Shown here one piece after another: positions 34,455 to 43,650 of a stretch of DNA of 64,000 nt. The translations under genes and the position numbers were made by a program. The stretch comes from Okeania sp. SIO2B3 (GTDB lineage: Bacteria; Cyanobacteriota; Cyanobacteriia; Cyanobacteriales; Microcoleaceae). A model generated the notes under the pieces. It was not told the origin of the DNA, ran no database searches, and saw nothing but the letters and a program-made list of their open reading frames with translations. How positions within the stretch are numbered: position 1 is the stretch's first letter; every line of letters starts with the position of its first letter. The stretch spans positions 500,754 through 564,753 of the forward strand of contig NZ_JAAHGH010000002.1 of assembly GCF_010672525.1 (NCBI RefSeq). Reading direction: 5' to 3'.

Positions 34455-34570
34455 GGCGTTGCTGATTATAGGTATGATTTTGCCCCCGCGCATCCCCCAA
34501 TTTTGGGGGATGCGCGGGGGCTTGACCAGAACAAAACAATCGCGCATTCATACTTCAATTCAGCAACGCC
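34455..34570. mobile_element. Miniature element with a 19-bp perfect hairpin
   Basis: Ends GGCGTTGCTGA and TCAGCAACGCC bound about 115 bp. At 34482-34500 and 34503-34521, GCCCCCGCGCATCCCCCAA pairs perfectly with its complement around TT. It belongs to the family at 24977-25320, but here the hairpin is made of two facing arms. The remaining DNA to the next start at 34760 is AT-rich. Confidence 0.75.
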
Positions 34571-34759: not shown

Positions 34760-37204
34760 ATGAATTATTCAAGTTTACAACCTAATGTTTATAGTATTCA
34801 GAAGGACGTAATTAATTTTCTTTCTGAGATTAGTAACCTATTTCATGATTATAATTCTGTTGCTATTTCAGAAACATTATCAAAAGAAAATAAGGAGTCA
34901 ATATCAAATTTTCTAACACAGTCAATATCGAACATTGACCAAGGCAAGAAAAATGTTGAGCATTTAGAACTTCGGATGGCAATCGTTGCTCCGATGAAGG
35001 CAGGAAAATCTACTATTGTTAATGCAATTGTTGGTCAAGAAATACTCCCTACTCGTAATGCAGCTATGACAATAATACCAACAGAAATTATTTTATACTC
35101 AAGTTTAGATCAACCTGAACTACTTGTTTTAGATGAAATTAAGATAATTTTTGAACAAGCAGTTTCAGCGATTCAAAATAAGATTAAAGAAATAGGTGGT
35201 GTAGAAAAAGCAAAAGCAATAATAGATAATTACCCTCATTTGCATAAAGAGCTAGAGAGGATTGAAAGAATAAACTTTTCAGAAGGTCATCTTTTTGCAG
35301 GTAATAAAACAACTGAACAAAAATATATTATAAACAAATTATCAATACTCAATGATACAATTCGCCTTTGTAATTTGTTGTCTGTGCAATTCAATCCCCT
35401 ACAAAGCCTTTCTACTCTTCCTCGTATTAAAACACCTTTTTTTCAACAGCTTTTTCAACAGCAAAATTTGGAACAGAAGAAACATTTAGGCGATCTTGTT
35501 ATTATTGATACTCCAGGCCCCAATGAAGCAAGTGATAACTCTCGCCTCTTAGGTGTTGTAAAGAATGAATTAAAAAGAAGTTCGATTGTATTAGTCGTTT
35601 TAGACTATACTCAACTCAACACAGAAGCGGCAAAAAATCTTAAGAAGGAAGTTGAACGTATTATTGAGATTCGAGGTAATCAAGACAGCTTGTATATTTT
35701 AGTAAATAAAGTCGATCAACGTAGAGAGGGCGATATGTCCCCTGAAGATATACAAAATTTTGTTGTCTCGGAGTTTGGAATAGATTCATCTAGAGCTAGA
35801 GACACTGTATTTGAGATATCAGCAAGGCGTGCATTTTCTGCTGCATCTTTTTTCAAGACCATCAATGACAATAGTTTTTCCTTAGAATATCTAAAACAGC
35901 TAGATACTTTTAAATTATTAGCCCGAGAAGCTTTTGGTGTTGACTGGGAAGAAGACTTAAAAAGTGCCAATCTGGAACTTTTAGAGCAGAAAGCGAATAG
36001 AATTTGGGAAAAGTCTAAGTTTGGTAATTTTATGGATAATGCTATCGATGCTTTAGTGAAAAGTGCTGCACCATTAGCTATCGAAAAAGTATTAACTCTA
36101 AGTTATAGGTTATTAGTTAGGTTAAAAGATGAGACAAATTTGCGTAATAAGGCAATTTTAAAAGATGCTTCTAAGTTAGAAGATGAAATTAATTCTTTAA
36201 AACAAGACTTAAATAATTTAGATAATATAAAAAAGAAACTAGGAAACTTTAACAATGTAAAAGAGGAGATAAATAAATATAAGGATGAGTCTTTATCTGT
36301 GATTCAGGACGGGCTTCAATTACTGATTGAAGAAAAATTTATTGGTAAAGAGTATGATCGTAGTAATTGGATTCAACAATTAGACAAAAAGAGTAGAAAA
36401 CTGTTGTTAACTCCCATTTCTAATATTAAATTTTTGTCTAAAGGATATATTACAGAAAAATTGTTTTATAAATCCCAAGGAAAAGTAGAATTTGAGGATA
36501 AAAATGAGGCTGATAAATTTGCTCAAGAGTCAATTTATTATTGTAGAGATTTAATAGAAACATATCTTATAGAGTTTAGAAAATCCTTGGAATCTAAAGT
36601 CAAGTCAGTTTACGATCAATTAGCAAATAAATTAGAACGAGAAACAGAATCTATAATTAAAAAGGCGACAGAGCGATTGAAGAGAGAATTTGAACTAAAA
36701 TTAGAACCTTTCTCCTCTCCAAAATTTCGCACAGAAGCCTGTGGGGAAATTGAATTTCAAATTAATCATAAACTTAAAACTCAAAGCTCAACAGAAATTC
36801 AGAAGCGTAGACGTTGGTTTACATTGTGGTTGTGGAAAGTGGATACTGCAGTAAAAATCAATAGAGAACAAGATTATTATGAAGTTGTATTAGAAAATTT
36901 AGTCAAGGAAGTAAATGTTTCACTTGAGGAGAATATTCAAAATATAAAGAATGAAATCAAAGAGTATCTTGATAAAGAAATACAAGATGAAATTGATGCT
37001 TATTTTGATTTATTAAATGAATACCTTTCAGGATATAGAGACAGTCTTGAAAATGCACAGGGTGATAAAACTCTAACTCACAAACAACAGGAACAACTTA
37101 AAGTAAAGTTAAATTCTATAGTTAAAAAATCTACAGAGCAAATAGGCAAGTGTGAGAATTATCTTGAAAGAGTTCAGAAAATATTGCCGCCCAAATCTTT
37201 TTAA
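34760..37204 (+). CDS. Dynamin-like GTPase
   Basis: Bacterial dynamin-family protein of 814 residues, first gene of a three-gene operon. GTPase motifs: G1 APMKAGKS (77-84), G2 Thr in AAMTIIPTE (about 104-108), G3 DTPG (250-253), G4 NKVD (316-319). Residues ~450-800 are helical and strongly charged, with long coiled-coil-like segments, as expected for a stalk. A short GYITEKLFYKS region and a Trp-rich patch (RRWFTLWLWKVD near 690) could touch membrane. Dynamin-like proteins bind and remodel membranes on GTP. In E. coli the dynamin-like RdcA (YjdA/CrfC) works with RdcB (YjcZ); the next gene is RdcB-like, so this is best read as an RdcA-type GTPase. The start is ATG with weak AAAGAA upstream. 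Confidence 0.88.
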   Translation: MNYSSLQPNVYSIQKDVINFLSEISNLFHDYNSVAISETLSKENKESISNFLTQSISNIDQGKKNVEHLELRMAIVAPMKAGKSTIVNAIVGQEILPTRNAAMTIIPTEIILYSSLDQPELLVLDEIKIIFEQAVSAIQNKIKEIGGVEKAKAIIDNYPHLHKELERIERINFSEGHLFAGNKTTEQKYIINKLSILNDTIRLCNLLSVQFNPLQSLSTLPRIKTPFFQQLFQQQNLEQKKHLGDLVIIDTPGPNEASDNSRLLGVVKNELKRSSIVLVVLDYTQLNTEAAKNLKKEVERIIEIRGNQDSLYILVNKVDQRREGDMSPEDIQNFVVSEFGIDSSRARDTVFEISARRAFSAASFFKTINDNSFSLEYLKQLDTFKLLAREAFGVDWEEDLKSANLELLEQKANRIWEKSKFGNFMDNAIDALVKSAAPLAIEKVLTLSYRLLVRLKDETNLRNKAILKDASKLEDEINSLKQDLNNLDNIKKKLGNFNNVKEEINKYKDESLSVIQDGLQLLIEEKFIGKEYDRSNWIQQLDKKSRKLLLTPISNIKFLSKGYITEKLFYKSQGKVEFEDKNEADKFAQESIYYCRDLIETYLIEFRKSLESKVKSVYDQLANKLERETESIIKKATERLKREFELKLEPFSSPKFRTEACGEIEFQINHKLKTQSSTEIQKRRRWFTLWLWKVDTAVKINREQDYYEVVLENLVKEVNVSLEENIQNIKNEIKEYLDKEIQDEIDAYFDLLNEYLSGYRDSLENAQGDKTLTHKQQEQLKVKLNSIVKKSTEQIGKCENYLERVQKILPPKSF

Positions 37205-37297
37205 AACAGAGAACTTAATACTTCTGAAATTTAAGAAGATAACTGGGTAGTTATGGATAGATTTAATCGAAAATTTTATAAATTTAGGAGTCATCAA

Positions 37298-38290
37298 ATG
37301 GAATCATTCGAGAAATTACAACGTAGAGTTCCCTTGGTTAGCGATAAAACCTTGCTCGATCTAGTTAATGGTATTCAAATTAGTCGTGGATTACTTAGTT
37401 ACCGTAAAAGTCAAGGCTTTTTTGGTAAACTACTTGATAACCTAACAGGAAGTAATTTTAAGCGTCAGATGCTACTAGAAGGAAATTTAGTTGCAGGTCA
37501 AGAAGCTTTACATGAATGGGTACTTGAATTAACAGATTCAGTTAATGTTAGTAAAGTTGCTTTATATACAACTCAAACTTCACTTTTAGAAGCTCGAAAT
37601 GCAATAAGAAATCATCGACAAGAATTACTGGAACATCAACAACAATTAATTGCTTTTAGTGAGAAGTTTAATCAACTGGCAACAGAGATTCATGGGCGGG
37701 TTAATGAATTAGAAAGCCGTCTTAAAAAACTAGAAATAAAAAGTGAAGCAAAAGATGATTTTGATCGGATTCTAACTTCTTGGTCTGCAAAGCAAACCTA
37801 TACTAAACTCCCTTGGGTATTTCAAGTAGTTTTTTTGGTAAGAGAAGTGTTTAGTAGTTCTGTAGCAATATATGAAATTAAGTCTGGTGATACTAAATAT
37901 TTCCGAGACTTATTAGGCAATAAAATTATTGCAGAAAGCCAACATTTACCAGATAACTTTTTTGATCTTCATCAACTATACGAGCAAGAATGGCAACAAT
38001 TACAGTCAACCGATTTAGATTTAGCAATGGGGTTGCTAGAAACTCGCTCTTTACCAAGAGAAAGACTTGTTGAAATGCCCTATTATTTTACATTAGGAAC
38101 TACTTTAGAATTAGCAAGTTTACCAGAGCAAGTTCGTCCTGAGAAACCAGCAGAATGTGCAATTGAAATTTGTCGTTCTCAAATTACCAAGTTAGATTAC
38201 ACCACAGACATTCGAGACTTTGTCCGTCAAAATGTTCAAGAGATTGCTAATGATAGTATTACCATTTTATCTAGGAGTCCGAAACTATGA
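37298..38290 (+). CDS. RdcB/YjcZ-like helical protein
   Basis: A product of 330 residues, second gene of the dynamin operon. The start at 37298 is chosen because AGGAG lies 7 nt upstream; an ATG at 37253 lacks a site. The N-terminal third (ISRGLLSYRKSQGFFGKLLD, then NLTGSNFKRQMLLEGNLVAG) resembles, from memory, the E. coli YjcZ/RdcB family, which together with the dynamin-like RdcA stimulates a diguanylate cyclase. Residues ~100-170 are a predicted coiled coil (QELLEHQQQLIAF...VNELESRLKKLE). The C-terminal domain (about 175-330) has no motif I know. Its TGA overlaps the ATG of the lipase gene by ATGA, which implies translational coupling. Confidence 0.7.
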   Translation: MESFEKLQRRVPLVSDKTLLDLVNGIQISRGLLSYRKSQGFFGKLLDNLTGSNFKRQMLLEGNLVAGQEALHEWVLELTDSVNVSKVALYTTQTSLLEARNAIRNHRQELLEHQQQLIAFSEKFNQLATEIHGRVNELESRLKKLEIKSEAKDDFDRILTSWSAKQTYTKLPWVFQVVFLVREVFSSSVAIYEIKSGDTKYFRDLLGNKIIAESQHLPDNFFDLHQLYEQEWQQLQSTDLDLAMGLLETRSLPRERLVEMPYYFTLGTTLELASLPEQVRPEKPAECAIEICRSQITKLDYTTDIRDFVRQNVQEIANDSITILSRSPKL

Positions 38291-39354
38291 ATCAATCATT
38301 ATCTCCTAATTTTTCCGATAAAGCTTTAACAATTAGTTCCTCTGATAAAGACTCAGAACATAAAATTGGTCTAGTGCTTGCTGGTGGTGGTGCAAAGGGA
38401 GCTTACGAAGCAGGAGCTTTAAGCTACTTAGCTGAAATTAATTTTGCTCCCCACATGATTGCAGGTACTAGCATTGGAGCTTTGAATGGAGCAGTTATTG
38501 CATCATACCCAGATTTCTCAGTAGCAGTAGAGCAACTAAATATTTTATGGGATAAACTAGGTTCAGAAAAAGTCTTGCACTTAAATCCTGAAGGAATCAA
38601 AAAAGTTGCCTACAATGCAGCAAAAACTTTTGTACCTGCATTTCAATCTTGGTTTTTCGATTTGATAAGTGAAATAGCTATAGATGGGGATAAAGTATCT
38701 TTATTTAATCCCGATACAGTTGAGAAGTTACTCAAGGAAGCAGTTAAACCTTCTGCGATACGAAGTGGTAAGGAGCTTTGGGTTGCCGTTTTTCCAGCCT
38801 TAAAAATTCCTGGCATAGATTACGATCATTTGCTAGGAATGCTTCAATTTTTAGCAGGATCGTCAGCAAAATGGTTAAGGGTGCAAGATTGCAAAGATGA
38901 TGAGTTACTTTACAATTTATTACTTGCAAGTGCTGCCATTCCTTTTGCATTCCCTCCACGAGAAATAAAGGGGAAATATTTCGTTGATGGAGCTTTAGGA
39001 GATAATGTACCTTTAGGTGCTTTATCAAAAGAGGGTTGTACTCATGCAATTGTTATTCATCTTGGAAATGCTGTTACCTGGAATCGTTATGATTTCCCAG
39101 AACAAGCAATTATAGAAATTCGCCCTACTCAATCTTTGAATAAAAATCAAGCTCTAATTGCTGGAGATATTACCAGTATGTTAGATTTTAGTTCAGAACG
39201 AATTAGCCAACTCAAACAACTAGGATATCAAGATGCTAAATATTGTTTGGAACCAATCCTGAGAAGTTTTACCAGTCTTAGTGAGCTACGCTCAGAGGAC
39301 GATCTTCTTAAAAAGAAAACAGAGGAACTTCAAAAAGATCCTCCTGTATGGTAA
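38287..39354 (+). CDS. Patatin-like phospholipase
   Basis: Lipid acyl hydrolase of the patatin family, 355 residues, third gene of the operon and overlapping its predecessor by 4 nt. The oxyanion motif GGGAKGAYEAG (33-43), nucleophile elbow GTSIG (Ser62) and catalytic Asp234 in VDGALGDNVPLG form the Ser-Asp dyad of the family. No signal peptide or transmembrane helix is evident, so it would act from the cytoplasm on membrane lipids. The coupling to a dynamin-like GTPase suggests that access to membrane is controlled by the GTPase. This is inference. Confidence 0.92.
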   Translation: MNQSLSPNFSDKALTISSSDKDSEHKIGLVLAGGGAKGAYEAGALSYLAEINFAPHMIAGTSIGALNGAVIASYPDFSVAVEQLNILWDKLGSEKVLHLNPEGIKKVAYNAAKTFVPAFQSWFFDLISEIAIDGDKVSLFNPDTVEKLLKEAVKPSAIRSGKELWVAVFPALKIPGIDYDHLLGMLQFLAGSSAKWLRVQDCKDDELLYNLLLASAAIPFAFPPREIKGKYFVDGALGDNVPLGALSKEGCTHAIVIHLGNAVTWNRYDFPEQAIIEIRPTQSLNKNQALIAGDITSMLDFSSERISQLKQLGYQDAKYCLEPILRSFTSLSELRSEDDLLKKKTEELQKDPPVW

Positions 39355-39866: not shown

Positions 39867-41708
39867 TTATTGTATTCCTTCCAAAGCATCTATCTTAGCT
39901 TTGATGTCTTCATCTTGGAGATTATTGTAGTGTCTCTTAAGTAAGGCAATATCTTCTGGTTGCCAATTCACCTTTTTCAGCACTTTATTAATCTGTGCTT
40001 TCAATTCAGAACGCAAGTACCTTACTTGTTCTAATTCTATTGATTCGCTTTCTTCCCAAGCATCAGCAAAAATCTCTAAAACTTTTTTGCCCTCTTCCCT
40101 ACTAATAGATCGTTCCTCGTCAAAATTATCTATTTGATCGGGATATCGCTTTGGTGAACCCAACCATTGAATTAAGATAACCGTATCAGATTCTCCTCCA
40201 CTGGTAAAGTAAGCGAGAAAACGAATTCCTGCTTTTTGATCTCTATTTCTATGAGTTGCATTCAAAATTTGTAAAATCTGCTGAGTATTAAATCTGCCCA
40301 TCTGACCTAGTGCTATTGCTGTTGCTTCACGAACCTCCGAATCTTCATCCCTCAACAAATCCAACAATTGGGGAATCAATTGTTTAGCCTCCGACCCCAA
40401 ATTACCCACTGCTGTTGCTGCTGCTCTACGGACATCCGAATCTTCATCCCTCAACAAATCCAACAATTGGGGAATCAATTGTTTAGCCTCCGACTCCAGA
40501 TTACCCACTGCTGTTGCTGCTGCTCTACGGACATCCGAATCTTCATCCCTCAACAACTGCTGAAACTGAGGAATCAATTGTTTAGCCTCCCATCCCAGAT
40601 TACCCACTGCTCTTGCTGTGGCAGCACGGACACGCCCATTTTTATCTTTGAACAACTGCTGCAATTGGGGAATAAACTCTTTAGCAGTCTCGGACTCCAT
40701 CTCACCCACTGCCCATGCTGCTGCTCTACGGAAATCGGAATCTTCATCGCTGAACAACTGCTCCAACTGAGGAATCAATTCTTGGGCCTCCCATCCCATC
40801 TCACTCACAACTCTTACTGCAGCAGCACGGACACGCCAATTTTTATCCCTCAACAACTGTTGCAACTGGGGAATAAATTCTGTGGCCTCCCATCCCATCT
40901 CACCCACTGCTGTTACTGCTGCGTAACGGATATTCGAATTTTTATCCCTCAATAACTGTTGCAACTGGGGAATAAATTCTGTGGCCTCCCATCCCATCTC
41001 ACCTACTGCTGTTACTGCTGCGTAACGGATATTCGAATTTTCATCGCTCAACAACTGCTGCAACTGGGGAATCAATTGTTTAGCCTCTGACCCCATCTCA
41101 CCCACTGCTATTGCTGCTGCACGACGGACCTCCGAATTTTCATCGCTCAACAACTGCTGCAACTGGGGAATCAATTGTTTAGCCTCTGATCCCATCTCAC
41201 CGACTGCTCTTACTGCAGCAGCACGGACACGCCAATATTTATTCGTCAACAACTGCTGCAACTGGGGAATCAATTCTTGAGCTTCCGACTCCAGATTACC
41301 CACTGCTCTTGCTGCTGCGATAACGACACGCCAATTTTCATCCCTGAACAACTGTAGCAACTGGGGTATAAATTGTTTAGCCTCCGACCCCAGATTACCC
41401 ACTGCCCATGCTGCTGCACTACGGACCTCAGAATCTTCATTCCTTAACAATTTTCCAATTTGTTCTACCCGCTCTGAGGGTATCTCAACAGGAGACTTAA
41501 GGTCATACTCAGAAATTTTCTTCATGGCCTCACCCCAAACATCAGGGTCAGAATCATCCAACGATGCCAAGGTTCCCTGGAGTTGCCAGTCTTCGGGTGG
41601 TGACTTCTCAAAAGCTTGAACATGACCCAAATTTACTGCCAATAACGCCACCAATAACAGCAGCAAAAAACGCAATTTACGAAGAAAGGAGTTGGAGAGT
41701 TTCATCAT
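39867..41708 (-). CDS. Secreted HEAT-repeat protein
   Basis: A product of 613 residues with an N-terminal signal peptide (FLLLLLVALLAVNLGHVQA). About eleven tandem HEAT repeats follow at residues ~90-460. Each is 33 residues and built as AVGEMGSEAKQLIPQLQQLL plus DEN-x-VRRAA, close to the phycobilisome-lyase-like HEAT type. Neighbouring units are almost identical at the DNA level, notably the two reading AVGEMGWEATEFIPQLQQLL, showing recent unit duplication. The last ~150 residues form a different helical domain ending KIDALEGIQ. HEAT solenoids bind proteins; the partner is unknown. The signal peptide implies a role outside the cytoplasm. Confidence 0.88.
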   Translation of the reverse strand: MMKLSNSFLRKLRFLLLLLVALLAVNLGHVQAFEKSPPEDWQLQGTLASLDDSDPDVWGEAMKKISEYDLKSPVEIPSERVEQIGKLLRNEDSEVRSAAAWAVGNLGSEAKQFIPQLLQLFRDENWRVVIAAARAVGNLESEAQELIPQLQQLLTNKYWRVRAAAVRAVGEMGSEAKQLIPQLQQLLSDENSEVRRAAAIAVGEMGSEAKQLIPQLQQLLSDENSNIRYAAVTAVGEMGWEATEFIPQLQQLLRDKNSNIRYAAVTAVGEMGWEATEFIPQLQQLLRDKNWRVRAAAVRVVSEMGWEAQELIPQLEQLFSDEDSDFRRAAAWAVGEMESETAKEFIPQLQQLFKDKNGRVRAATARAVGNLGWEAKQLIPQFQQLLRDEDSDVRRAAATAVGNLESEAKQLIPQLLDLLRDEDSDVRRAAATAVGNLGSEAKQLIPQLLDLLRDEDSEVREATAIALGQMGRFNTQQILQILNATHRNRDQKAGIRFLAYFTSGGESDTVILIQWLGSPKRYPDQIDNFDEERSISREEGKKVLEIFADAWEESESIELEQVRYLRSELKAQINKVLKKVNWQPEDIALLKRHYNNLQDEDIKAKIDALEGIQ

Positions 41709-42826: not shown

Positions 42827-43650
42827 AGCTTTGTTGCACAAAAGACGATCTGGTAAGCTATTTTTTTGCTAGTCCCTTACTCAAGCGTTGGCGGAGCCTA
42901 GCGGTAGCTATATCGCTGAGTTTTGCGGATATATTTGATTTAACTATTGTCCAATAGTTATTTGATTTATATACAGTTAGAGGAAGCGATCGCTGAGTTT
43001 TGCGGATATATTTGATTTAACTATTGTCCAATAGTTATTTGATTTATATACAGTTAGAGGAAGCGATCGCTAAGTTTTGCGGATATATTTTATTTAACTA
43101 TTGTCCAATAGTTATTTTGATTTATATACAGTTAGAGGAAGCGATCGCTAAGTTTTGCGGATATATTTGATTTAACTATTGTCCAATAGTTATTTTGATT
43201 TATATACAGTTAGAGGAAGCGATCGCTAAGTTTTGCGGATATATTTGATTTAACTATTGTCCAATAGTTATTTTGATTTATATACAGTTAGAGGAAGCGA
43301 TCGCTGAGTTTTGCGGATATATTTGATTTAACTATTGTCCAATAGTTATTTTGATTTATATACAGTTAGAGGAAGCGATCGCTAAGTTTTGCGGATCTGT
43401 TTGATTTAACTATTGTCCAATAGTTATTTGATTTATATACAGTTAGAGGAAGCGATCGCTAAGTTTTGCGGATCTGTTTGATTTAACTATTGTCCAATAG
43501 TTATTTTGATTTATATACAGTTAGAGGAAGCGATCGCTAAGTTTTGCGGATATATTTGATTTAACTATTGTCCAATAGTTACAGCAGTTTCCGCATGAAG
43601 TACATCTCGGGAGTCTAGTCGCAGCTATATACTTTCATGCAACAAAGCCA
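42827..43650. mobile_element. Non-autonomous transposon-like element enclosing a tandem array
   Basis: GCTTTGTTGCA (42828-42838) is inverted as TGCAACAAAGC (43638-43648). Outside these stand identical octamers CTGACAAC at 42819-42826 and 43651-43658, one and two bases from the inverted ends. Termini of the form GG(C/T)-x-TGTTGCA with an 8-bp target duplication are features of IS6-family elements. The interior has no transposase gene, only the 77/78-bp array. A trans-acting transposase would be needed. Confidence 0.6.
42914..43580. repeat. Nine-unit 77/78-bp tandem array with palindrome and HIP1 octamer
   Basis: Units start at 42914, 42991, 43068, 43146, 43224, 43302, 43380, 43457 and 43535 (last one partial). 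Units differ by single bases and by one T (77 or 78 bp). Each carries the perfect palindrome AACTATTGTCCAATAGTT; successive units are joined by GCGATCGC. All frames contain stops, so the array is non-coding. A 17-bp segment TTTTGCGGATCTGTTTG of units 7 and 8 also occurs in the nearby IS1-like relic (42714-42730). Confidence 0.95.

Follow-up and report, generated by a model that had tools for sequence, protein, structure and literature searches.

A three-gene locus of the cyanobacterium Okeania sp. SIO2B3 encodes, in this order and in a single direction, a dynamin-like GTPase, an RdcB/YjcZ-family protein and a patatin-like phospholipase. The locus occupies positions 34760-39354 of the 64,000-nucleotide (nt) stretch of contig NZ_JAAHGH010000002.1 analyzed here (hereafter, the window). 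The same trio recurs in other cyanobacteria, on plasmids and in chromosomal islands of Escherichia coli, and the view that the three genes are one co-inherited mobile module is well supported. We put at about one half the probability that this module is a GTPase-gated lipase whose most likely targets are phages or other mobile DNA. The host genome is cyanobacterial, 10.0 Mb in size and nearly complete. The features of the locus are as follows (lengths in amino acids [aa]).

34760..37204, + strand: dynamin-like GTPase of the RdcA/CrfC (YjdA) family, 814 aa; Dynamin_N and CrfC models; proposed sensor and oligomerizing switch
37298..38290, + strand: RdcB/YjcZ-family protein, ~330 aa from the conserved start; PF13990; proposed GTPase-lipase adaptor
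38287..39354, + strand: patatin-like phospholipase, 355 aa, with a Ser62-Asp234 dyad; Patatin; proposed effector
38287..38290, + strand: ATGA, the 4-nt overlap of genes 2 and 3, from the coordinates

Three intact protein families in one operon

An earlier reading of this DNA by a model that had no database access (the sequence-only reading) proposed these positions, the common direction and the ATGA overlap, all of which agree with the coordinates. It also preferred a start of gene 2 that leaves a 93-nt gap to gene 1 (37298) over the earliest ATG of the frame (37253, a 48-nt gap). That preference holds, because the RdcB frames of relatives either begin only six codons ahead of the Met equivalent to 37298 (loci L011 and L014) or equal in length the window frame counted from this start (L013), and because AGGAG lies 7 nt 5' of it. 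Promoter and terminator scans yielded about as much as shuffled sequence.

The window dynamin matches Dynamin_N of Pfam (1.7e-12) and the NCBIfam CrfC model (1.5e-46), yet the latter match scores 159 bits versus an equivalog cutoff of 1146. Its P-loop (APMKAGKS), DTPG and NKVD motifs are all intact; the leading Ala of the P-loop is common to most window-type relatives, and the P-loop, Thr, DxPG and N/D residues are invariant among 12 aligned dynamins. A Trp-rich stretch near residue 683 (window numbering), shared by several relatives, could be a membrane paddle. The highest hydropathy of any 19-residue segment in the three window proteins is 1.52; the customary threshold for a transmembrane helix is 1.6. 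The genome of the window (G000) gave 20 rows of Dynamin_N matches, some of which are two parts of one gene, with several on contig C220.

The product of gene 2 scores above the cutoff of the Pfam YjcZ model PF13990 (3e-10; 40.3 bits, cutoff of 27) over residues 34-180 only, which upholds at the sequence level the claim that the middle protein is RdcB-like; a sequence-based search found no solved-structure match for it, and a comparison of the RdcB alignment with K-12 RdcB was set aside as circular, the K-12 protein being part of that alignment. A dynamin of the RdcA/CrfC kind lies directly upstream, and, as judged from these profile matches, the kinship of the two window proteins with the RdcAB pair stands. 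Gene 3 matches Patatin of Pfam (3.7e-37), and its product carries the GxSxG serine, the DG[GA] aspartate and the glycine-rich oxyanion loop; Gly33-35, Ser62 and Asp234 are invariant in 19/19 aligned patatins, and a sequence search with the window protein reached the solved relatives PlpD and VipD. The alignments thus agree with the earlier statement that the GTPase motifs and the Ser62/Asp234 dyad are intact. Taken together, the invariant GTPase residues, the invariant lipase dyad, the overlapping genes and their co-inheritance suggest that one complex is made.

The trio in cyanobacteria

Genome searches were made around the lineage of the window, and other groups were covered through plasmid records and complete E. 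coli genomes. A PF13990 survey found 9 places in 8 of 386 genomes sampled from the phylum as a whole and 26 places in 24 of 388 genomes sampled from the order. Merged, and with the window counted, these make 27 places in 25 genomes. A dynamin match lies upstream at 26 of the 27 places, the remaining one (genome G412) starting at a contig end, and a patatin match lies downstream at 26 of the 27, with none in the 4 kb of contig remaining in G514. At 18 places each gene of the trio is whole. Of the nine others, six have a dynamin that is short or split or that meets a contig end (G231, G103, G584, G514, G632 and G412), and in G103 the patatin, too, is a fragment, of 124 aa. At two more, in G506 and on contig 22 of G662, it is the patatin that is cut or interrupted; the interruption in the patatin of L060 lies near its start. 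At the ninth, the RdcB gene of G454 is split by what looks like a transposase gene.

Three of the 18 whole trios have extra open reading frames (ORFs) between RdcB and patatin: XisH and XisI in G022 and XisI in G577, as identified by Pfam, and a second dynamin in G245. At the level of loci, one cyanobacterial subgroup has XisH plus XisI (L051) or XisI (L065) separating the RdcB and patatin genes, and a second dynamin lies 3' of RdcB in L049. The close relatives of the window locus that we found are Okeania metagenome-assembled genomes (contig scan, four Okeania loci only).

Plasmids, E. coli and other bacteria

With the RdcB protein of a type II cyanobacterial trio (L002; the types are defined below) as the query, 33 plasmid records were retrieved from Klebsiella, Enterobacter, Escherichia, Nostoc and Aliarcobacter, of which 16 are typed as conjugative, 7 as mobilizable and 10 as neither. 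An E. coli-type patatin query retrieved 37 records, including all 33, and RdcB and patatin are adjacent by coordinates in every one of the 33 (with the patatin split in NZ_CP058176). Among the four additional records, one has broken genes and an RdcB fragment and three have 48%-length patatin matches; the window patatin returned the identical 37 plus a marginal match in Rhizobium (9e-6). The sequence-only reading depended on the three families being regular neighbors in other genomes rather than rarely adjacent, and the 26/27 cyanobacterial places and 33/33 plasmid records bear this out. Since the same order recurs across phyla, it lies far beyond chance.

The upstream dynamin is whole at plasmid loci L015, L016, L018, L021 and L072, cut in L017 and absent in L020. 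Two Aliarcobacter plasmids (L019 and L022) carry RdcB and patatin, with two other genes in place of a recognizable dynamin, an arrangement that is possibly a non-GTPase version of the module. These genes, at 7263-8951 in L019 and also in L022, precede RdcB and encode two proteins, one of 161 aa whose C-terminal tail is hydrophobic and one of 397 aa that matches no family; both the 397-aa and the RdcB frames are broken in L022. The upstream gene was considered as a stalk-only dynamin and rejected, the profile-comparison probability being 0.2%. Both Aliarcobacter pairs lie ~3.6 kb from a Shedu gene.

The E. coli trio DNA was matched in 2,596 of 5,426 complete genomes, an uneven sample of the species, and at least 80% of the trio was present in 2,426 of them. 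All places except one (3,384/3,385) are chromosomal. The five chromosomal loci inspected all sit in islands that also carry yeeT-, cbeA- and cbtA-type genes and that we take to be of the CP4-44 kind; at one locus the dynamin is split by an insertion sequence, and another lacks the dynamin and has a cut RdcB. In E. coli K-12, the rdcA-rdcB pair adjoins proP, with no patatin beside it.

Viruses gave no counterpart of the trio in the searches made. Neither the window RdcB nor the E. coli trio DNA found a match in the phages collection, the E. coli RdcB found no relative in viral contigs, and none of 51 viral patatins from a patatin-alignment search was flanked by a dynamin or RdcB match.

Shared history of the three genes

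All three protein trees contain a strongly supported split into type I, to which the window copy and the majority of the cyanobacterial ones belong, and type II, comprising some cyanobacterial and the enterobacterial copies and, for RdcB and patatin, those of Aliarcobacter. Apart from this split, the RdcB tree is weak, with long branches. Two genomes (G042 and G662) each carry one trio of either type, one of them nearer that of E. coli. Distance matrices for 27 loci agree closely (r of 0.93 for dynamin-RdcB, 0.88 for dynamin-patatin and 0.97 for RdcB-patatin), with 0/2,000 permutations in each of the three comparisons.

When eight further dynamins encoded by the host genome are included in the tree, the trio dynamins and K-12 RdcA form a single clade (100/99). 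The type II dynamins are a clade within it (100/99), and K-12 RdcA lies inside that clade as the sister of the enterobacterial trio dynamins (100/99). Given this nesting, the K-12 pair probably lost a lipase; by the branching of the protein trees, rdcAB is probably a descendant of a three-gene ancestor.

A changing Okeania dynamin and a conserved lipase

Between the window and four Okeania relatives, identity is 64-83% for the dynamin, 88-91% for RdcB and 88-95% for the patatin, and the ratios of nonsynonymous to synonymous substitution (dN/dS; 10 pairs each) are 0.46-0.67, 0.20-0.33 and 0.19-0.46, respectively. The least conserved region of the dynamin, at residues ~441-720 in five Okeania-type copies, lies outside the GTPase domain. 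A varying sensor paired with a constant effector fits this pattern, as may other causes.

Patatin genes remain whole at loci with a cut, split or missing dynamin (L017, L020, L025, L026 and L047). The lipase therefore seems to be idle until activated rather than a toxin held in check by an antitoxin.

Proposed mechanism and alternatives

We propose that the dynamin would form a GTP-dependent oligomer at the membrane in answer to a signal caused by an invader, which may be membrane damage or a component of a phage or plasmid. RdcB would pass the state of the GTPase to the patatin, coupling the two, so that assembly or GTP hydrolysis might release the lipase or cluster it on the inner membrane. 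The activated lipase would then cut phospholipid, and the infected cell would halt growth or die before phage production. In the K-12 lineage, the lipase was probably lost, and control of a diguanylate cyclase would have been acquired. In K-12, RdcA dimerizes or oligomerizes, binds RdcB and requires its own GTPase activity (PMC6510439).

Mobility, patchy spread, broken copies, the changing dynamin, a lipase effector and the Aliarcobacter pairs near Shedu all point to defense and leave that role at about even odds. Of the earlier suggestion that the operon is a machine for membrane remodeling or phage defense, the conserved unit of GTPase and lipase has held; the defense role is one we infer. 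A dynamin-superfamily GTPase in this proposed sensing role would be comparable in principle to the Mx and GBP proteins of animals.

A number of observations weigh against this reading. The window trio has housekeeping-like neighbors, which encode a Clp ATPase, a C39-type exporter and a HEAT-repeat protein. L011 and L013 have the same neighbors as the window, with DNA identity of 93.8-96.6% over the flanking Clp and HEAT-repeat genes, so that at these two loci the trio has not moved recently. (The HEAT-repeat gene was not found in L014, where similarity picks up again at the exporter.) PADLOC models, applied at 1e-10 to 132 of 173 neighbor ORFs and to 132 of 171 control ORFs, matched 110 and 53 families, respectively, counted per family and not per protein, several being transposon or SNF2-helicase models. 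The controls came from 20 chosen, nonrandom regions of the same genomes, one of which yielded none, and the neighbor set left out L052, L057, L015, L016 and some ORFs at other loci. No family occurred in more than 3 neighbors or more than 4 controls, so that enrichment in these cyanobacterial neighborhoods is not demonstrated. The genes beside the trio in the five E. coli islands are toxin-antitoxin, antirestriction, adhesin and transposon genes, with no known defense systems among them. Only in Okeania does the dynamin clearly change fast: in E. coli-type copies (n = 4), dN/dS is 0.08-0.25 for all three genes, as in ordinary purifying selection, the closest pair being excluded (synonymous distance below 0.08, ratios of 0.25-0.63). 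Even in Okeania, the dynamin is more diverged than RdcB at synonymous sites in 8 of 10 pairs, and the window groups with L014 in the dynamin tree but with L011 in that of the patatin; both suggest exchange of dynamin alleles among Okeania, which weakens the arms-race interpretation. Lastly, 11 of the 25 trio genomes do encode a MASE1 protein, on which a regulator of the K-12 kind could dock.

Several of these points would suit a role in membrane maintenance, in which the dynamin would draw damaged inner membrane into tubules or seal it, and the lipase would trim lipids at these sites or recycle them, with no action against invaders. Membranes are the site of action of both dynamins and lipases, DynA of Bacillus subtilis is tied to membrane integrity, and the unchanged, housekeeping-like surroundings and the purifying selection in E. 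coli would be expected. We nevertheless consider maintenance unlikely, given the patchy spread (8/386 and 24/388 genomes), carriage on plasmids and islands, frequent breakage and the fast change of the Okeania dynamin. The homology of both proteins and the K-12 data (PMC6510439) could instead indicate that the trio regulates a diguanylate cyclase, as RdcAB does, the lipase being an added output, and the 11 genomes with MASE1 would accommodate this. This interpretation is weakened to the point of being improbable: the genome of the window and 14 of the 25 trio genomes lack MASE1, for which reason we do not class the trio as a diguanylate cyclase regulator, although another cyclase partner is possible; the nesting of K-12 RdcA among trio dynamins makes its role look derived, and K-12 rdcAB has no adjacent patatin.

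The proximity of the trio to toxin-antitoxin genes on plasmids and islands raises the idea of an addiction cassette of mobile DNA, with the lipase as toxin and the dynamin and RdcB restraining it. The persistence of whole lipases beside defective dynamins and the retention of the pair in K-12 without a lipase make this quite improbable. Still less credence goes to an aid to vesicle formation or secretion, in which the dynamin and lipase promote membrane vesicles, as has been proposed for LeoA, since likeness to the LeoBC model is weak (E of 0.022 for the window dynamin, its sole PADLOC match at E up to 1, and 9.4e-6, 23 bits, for the E. coli copy) and the trio occurs in cyanobacteria.

Defense by a GTPase-gated lipase is the reading that we carry forward. 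In its fullest form, it describes a widespread, previously undescribed immunity in which a dynamin GTPase senses an invader and, with RdcB as the adaptor, activates a patatin against the membrane of its own cell, present in ~45% of complete E. coli genomes, with K-12 RdcAB as a disarmed, reused descendant; this version we advance tentatively, at somewhat less than even odds. If it is true, nearly half of the complete E. coli genomes examined here encode a GTPase-lipase system directed at the membrane whose genes have been annotated piecemeal, and the annotation "diguanylate cyclase regulator RdcB family protein" is probably misleading. It would also connect bacterial dynamin GTPases with a lipase effector, point to a shared role for the RdcB family and explain K-12 RdcAB as the system minus its weapon.

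Other features near the trio

A near-perfect, GC-rich palindrome of 40 nt lies 5' of the trio (34482-34521); considered as a candidate end of a mobile element, it has only one genomic place at ≤3 mismatches. The HEAT-repeat protein gene (39867-41708) contains an internal array of 11.6 copies of a 99-bp unit, and a 78-bp unit is repeated 8.6 times in tandem, with 97% matches, at 42912-43581.

Comparison with known systems

The searches made, which covered open-license papers and no preprints, showed no description of the trio as a system, and one may exist elsewhere. In the nearest paper, the membrane genes reported for one island of Shiga toxin-producing E. coli include patatin-like phospholipases and a "dynamin-like protein rdcB" (PMC13182975). 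Elsewhere, CrfC is treated as a nucleoid factor (PMC6374313), and island dynamins predicted to be defensive were inactive against the phages tested (PMC12595487).

The trio resembles CBASS with a CapV-type effector in having a patatin as the likely membrane-attacking effector, and its patatin matches CBASS phospholipase models weakly; the window protein scores 29 bits against CBASS_lipase, below the curated cutoff of 200. Unlike in CBASS, the patatin has a GTPase as its partner. A nucleotide cyclase was neither found among the six window neighbors scanned nor annotated at the plasmid and E. coli trio loci inspected, no genome-wide search having been made.

LeoABC is reportedly linked to the Eleos defense system. 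It, too, is dynamin based, and LeoA sits on a pathogenicity island; by the LeoA and LeoBC models, the window dynamin does not belong to Eleos. LeoABC consists of tandem dynamins, whereas the trio usually has one dynamin with RdcB and a lipase, and YjdA has been described as an exception to the tandem arrangement (PMC4159319). B. subtilis DynA is likewise a dynamin, and it delays lysis, limiting phage at the population level, as its abstract relates; unlike for the trio, that abstract mentions no lipase or RdcB partner. Cyanobacterial dynamins have been sorted, partly by gene context, into KGK, HSR1, chaperone, Tandem A and Tandem B clades; none is named with an RdcB or patatin neighbor in section 7 of that study (PMC5827413).

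The closest parallel is RdcA-RdcB of K-12 (YjdA/CrfC-YjcZ). It differs in that no patatin adjoins it and in that RdcA acts on DgcE via MASE1, a domain absent from the window's genome. In both, a dynamin gene is followed by an overlapping RdcB gene of the same families.

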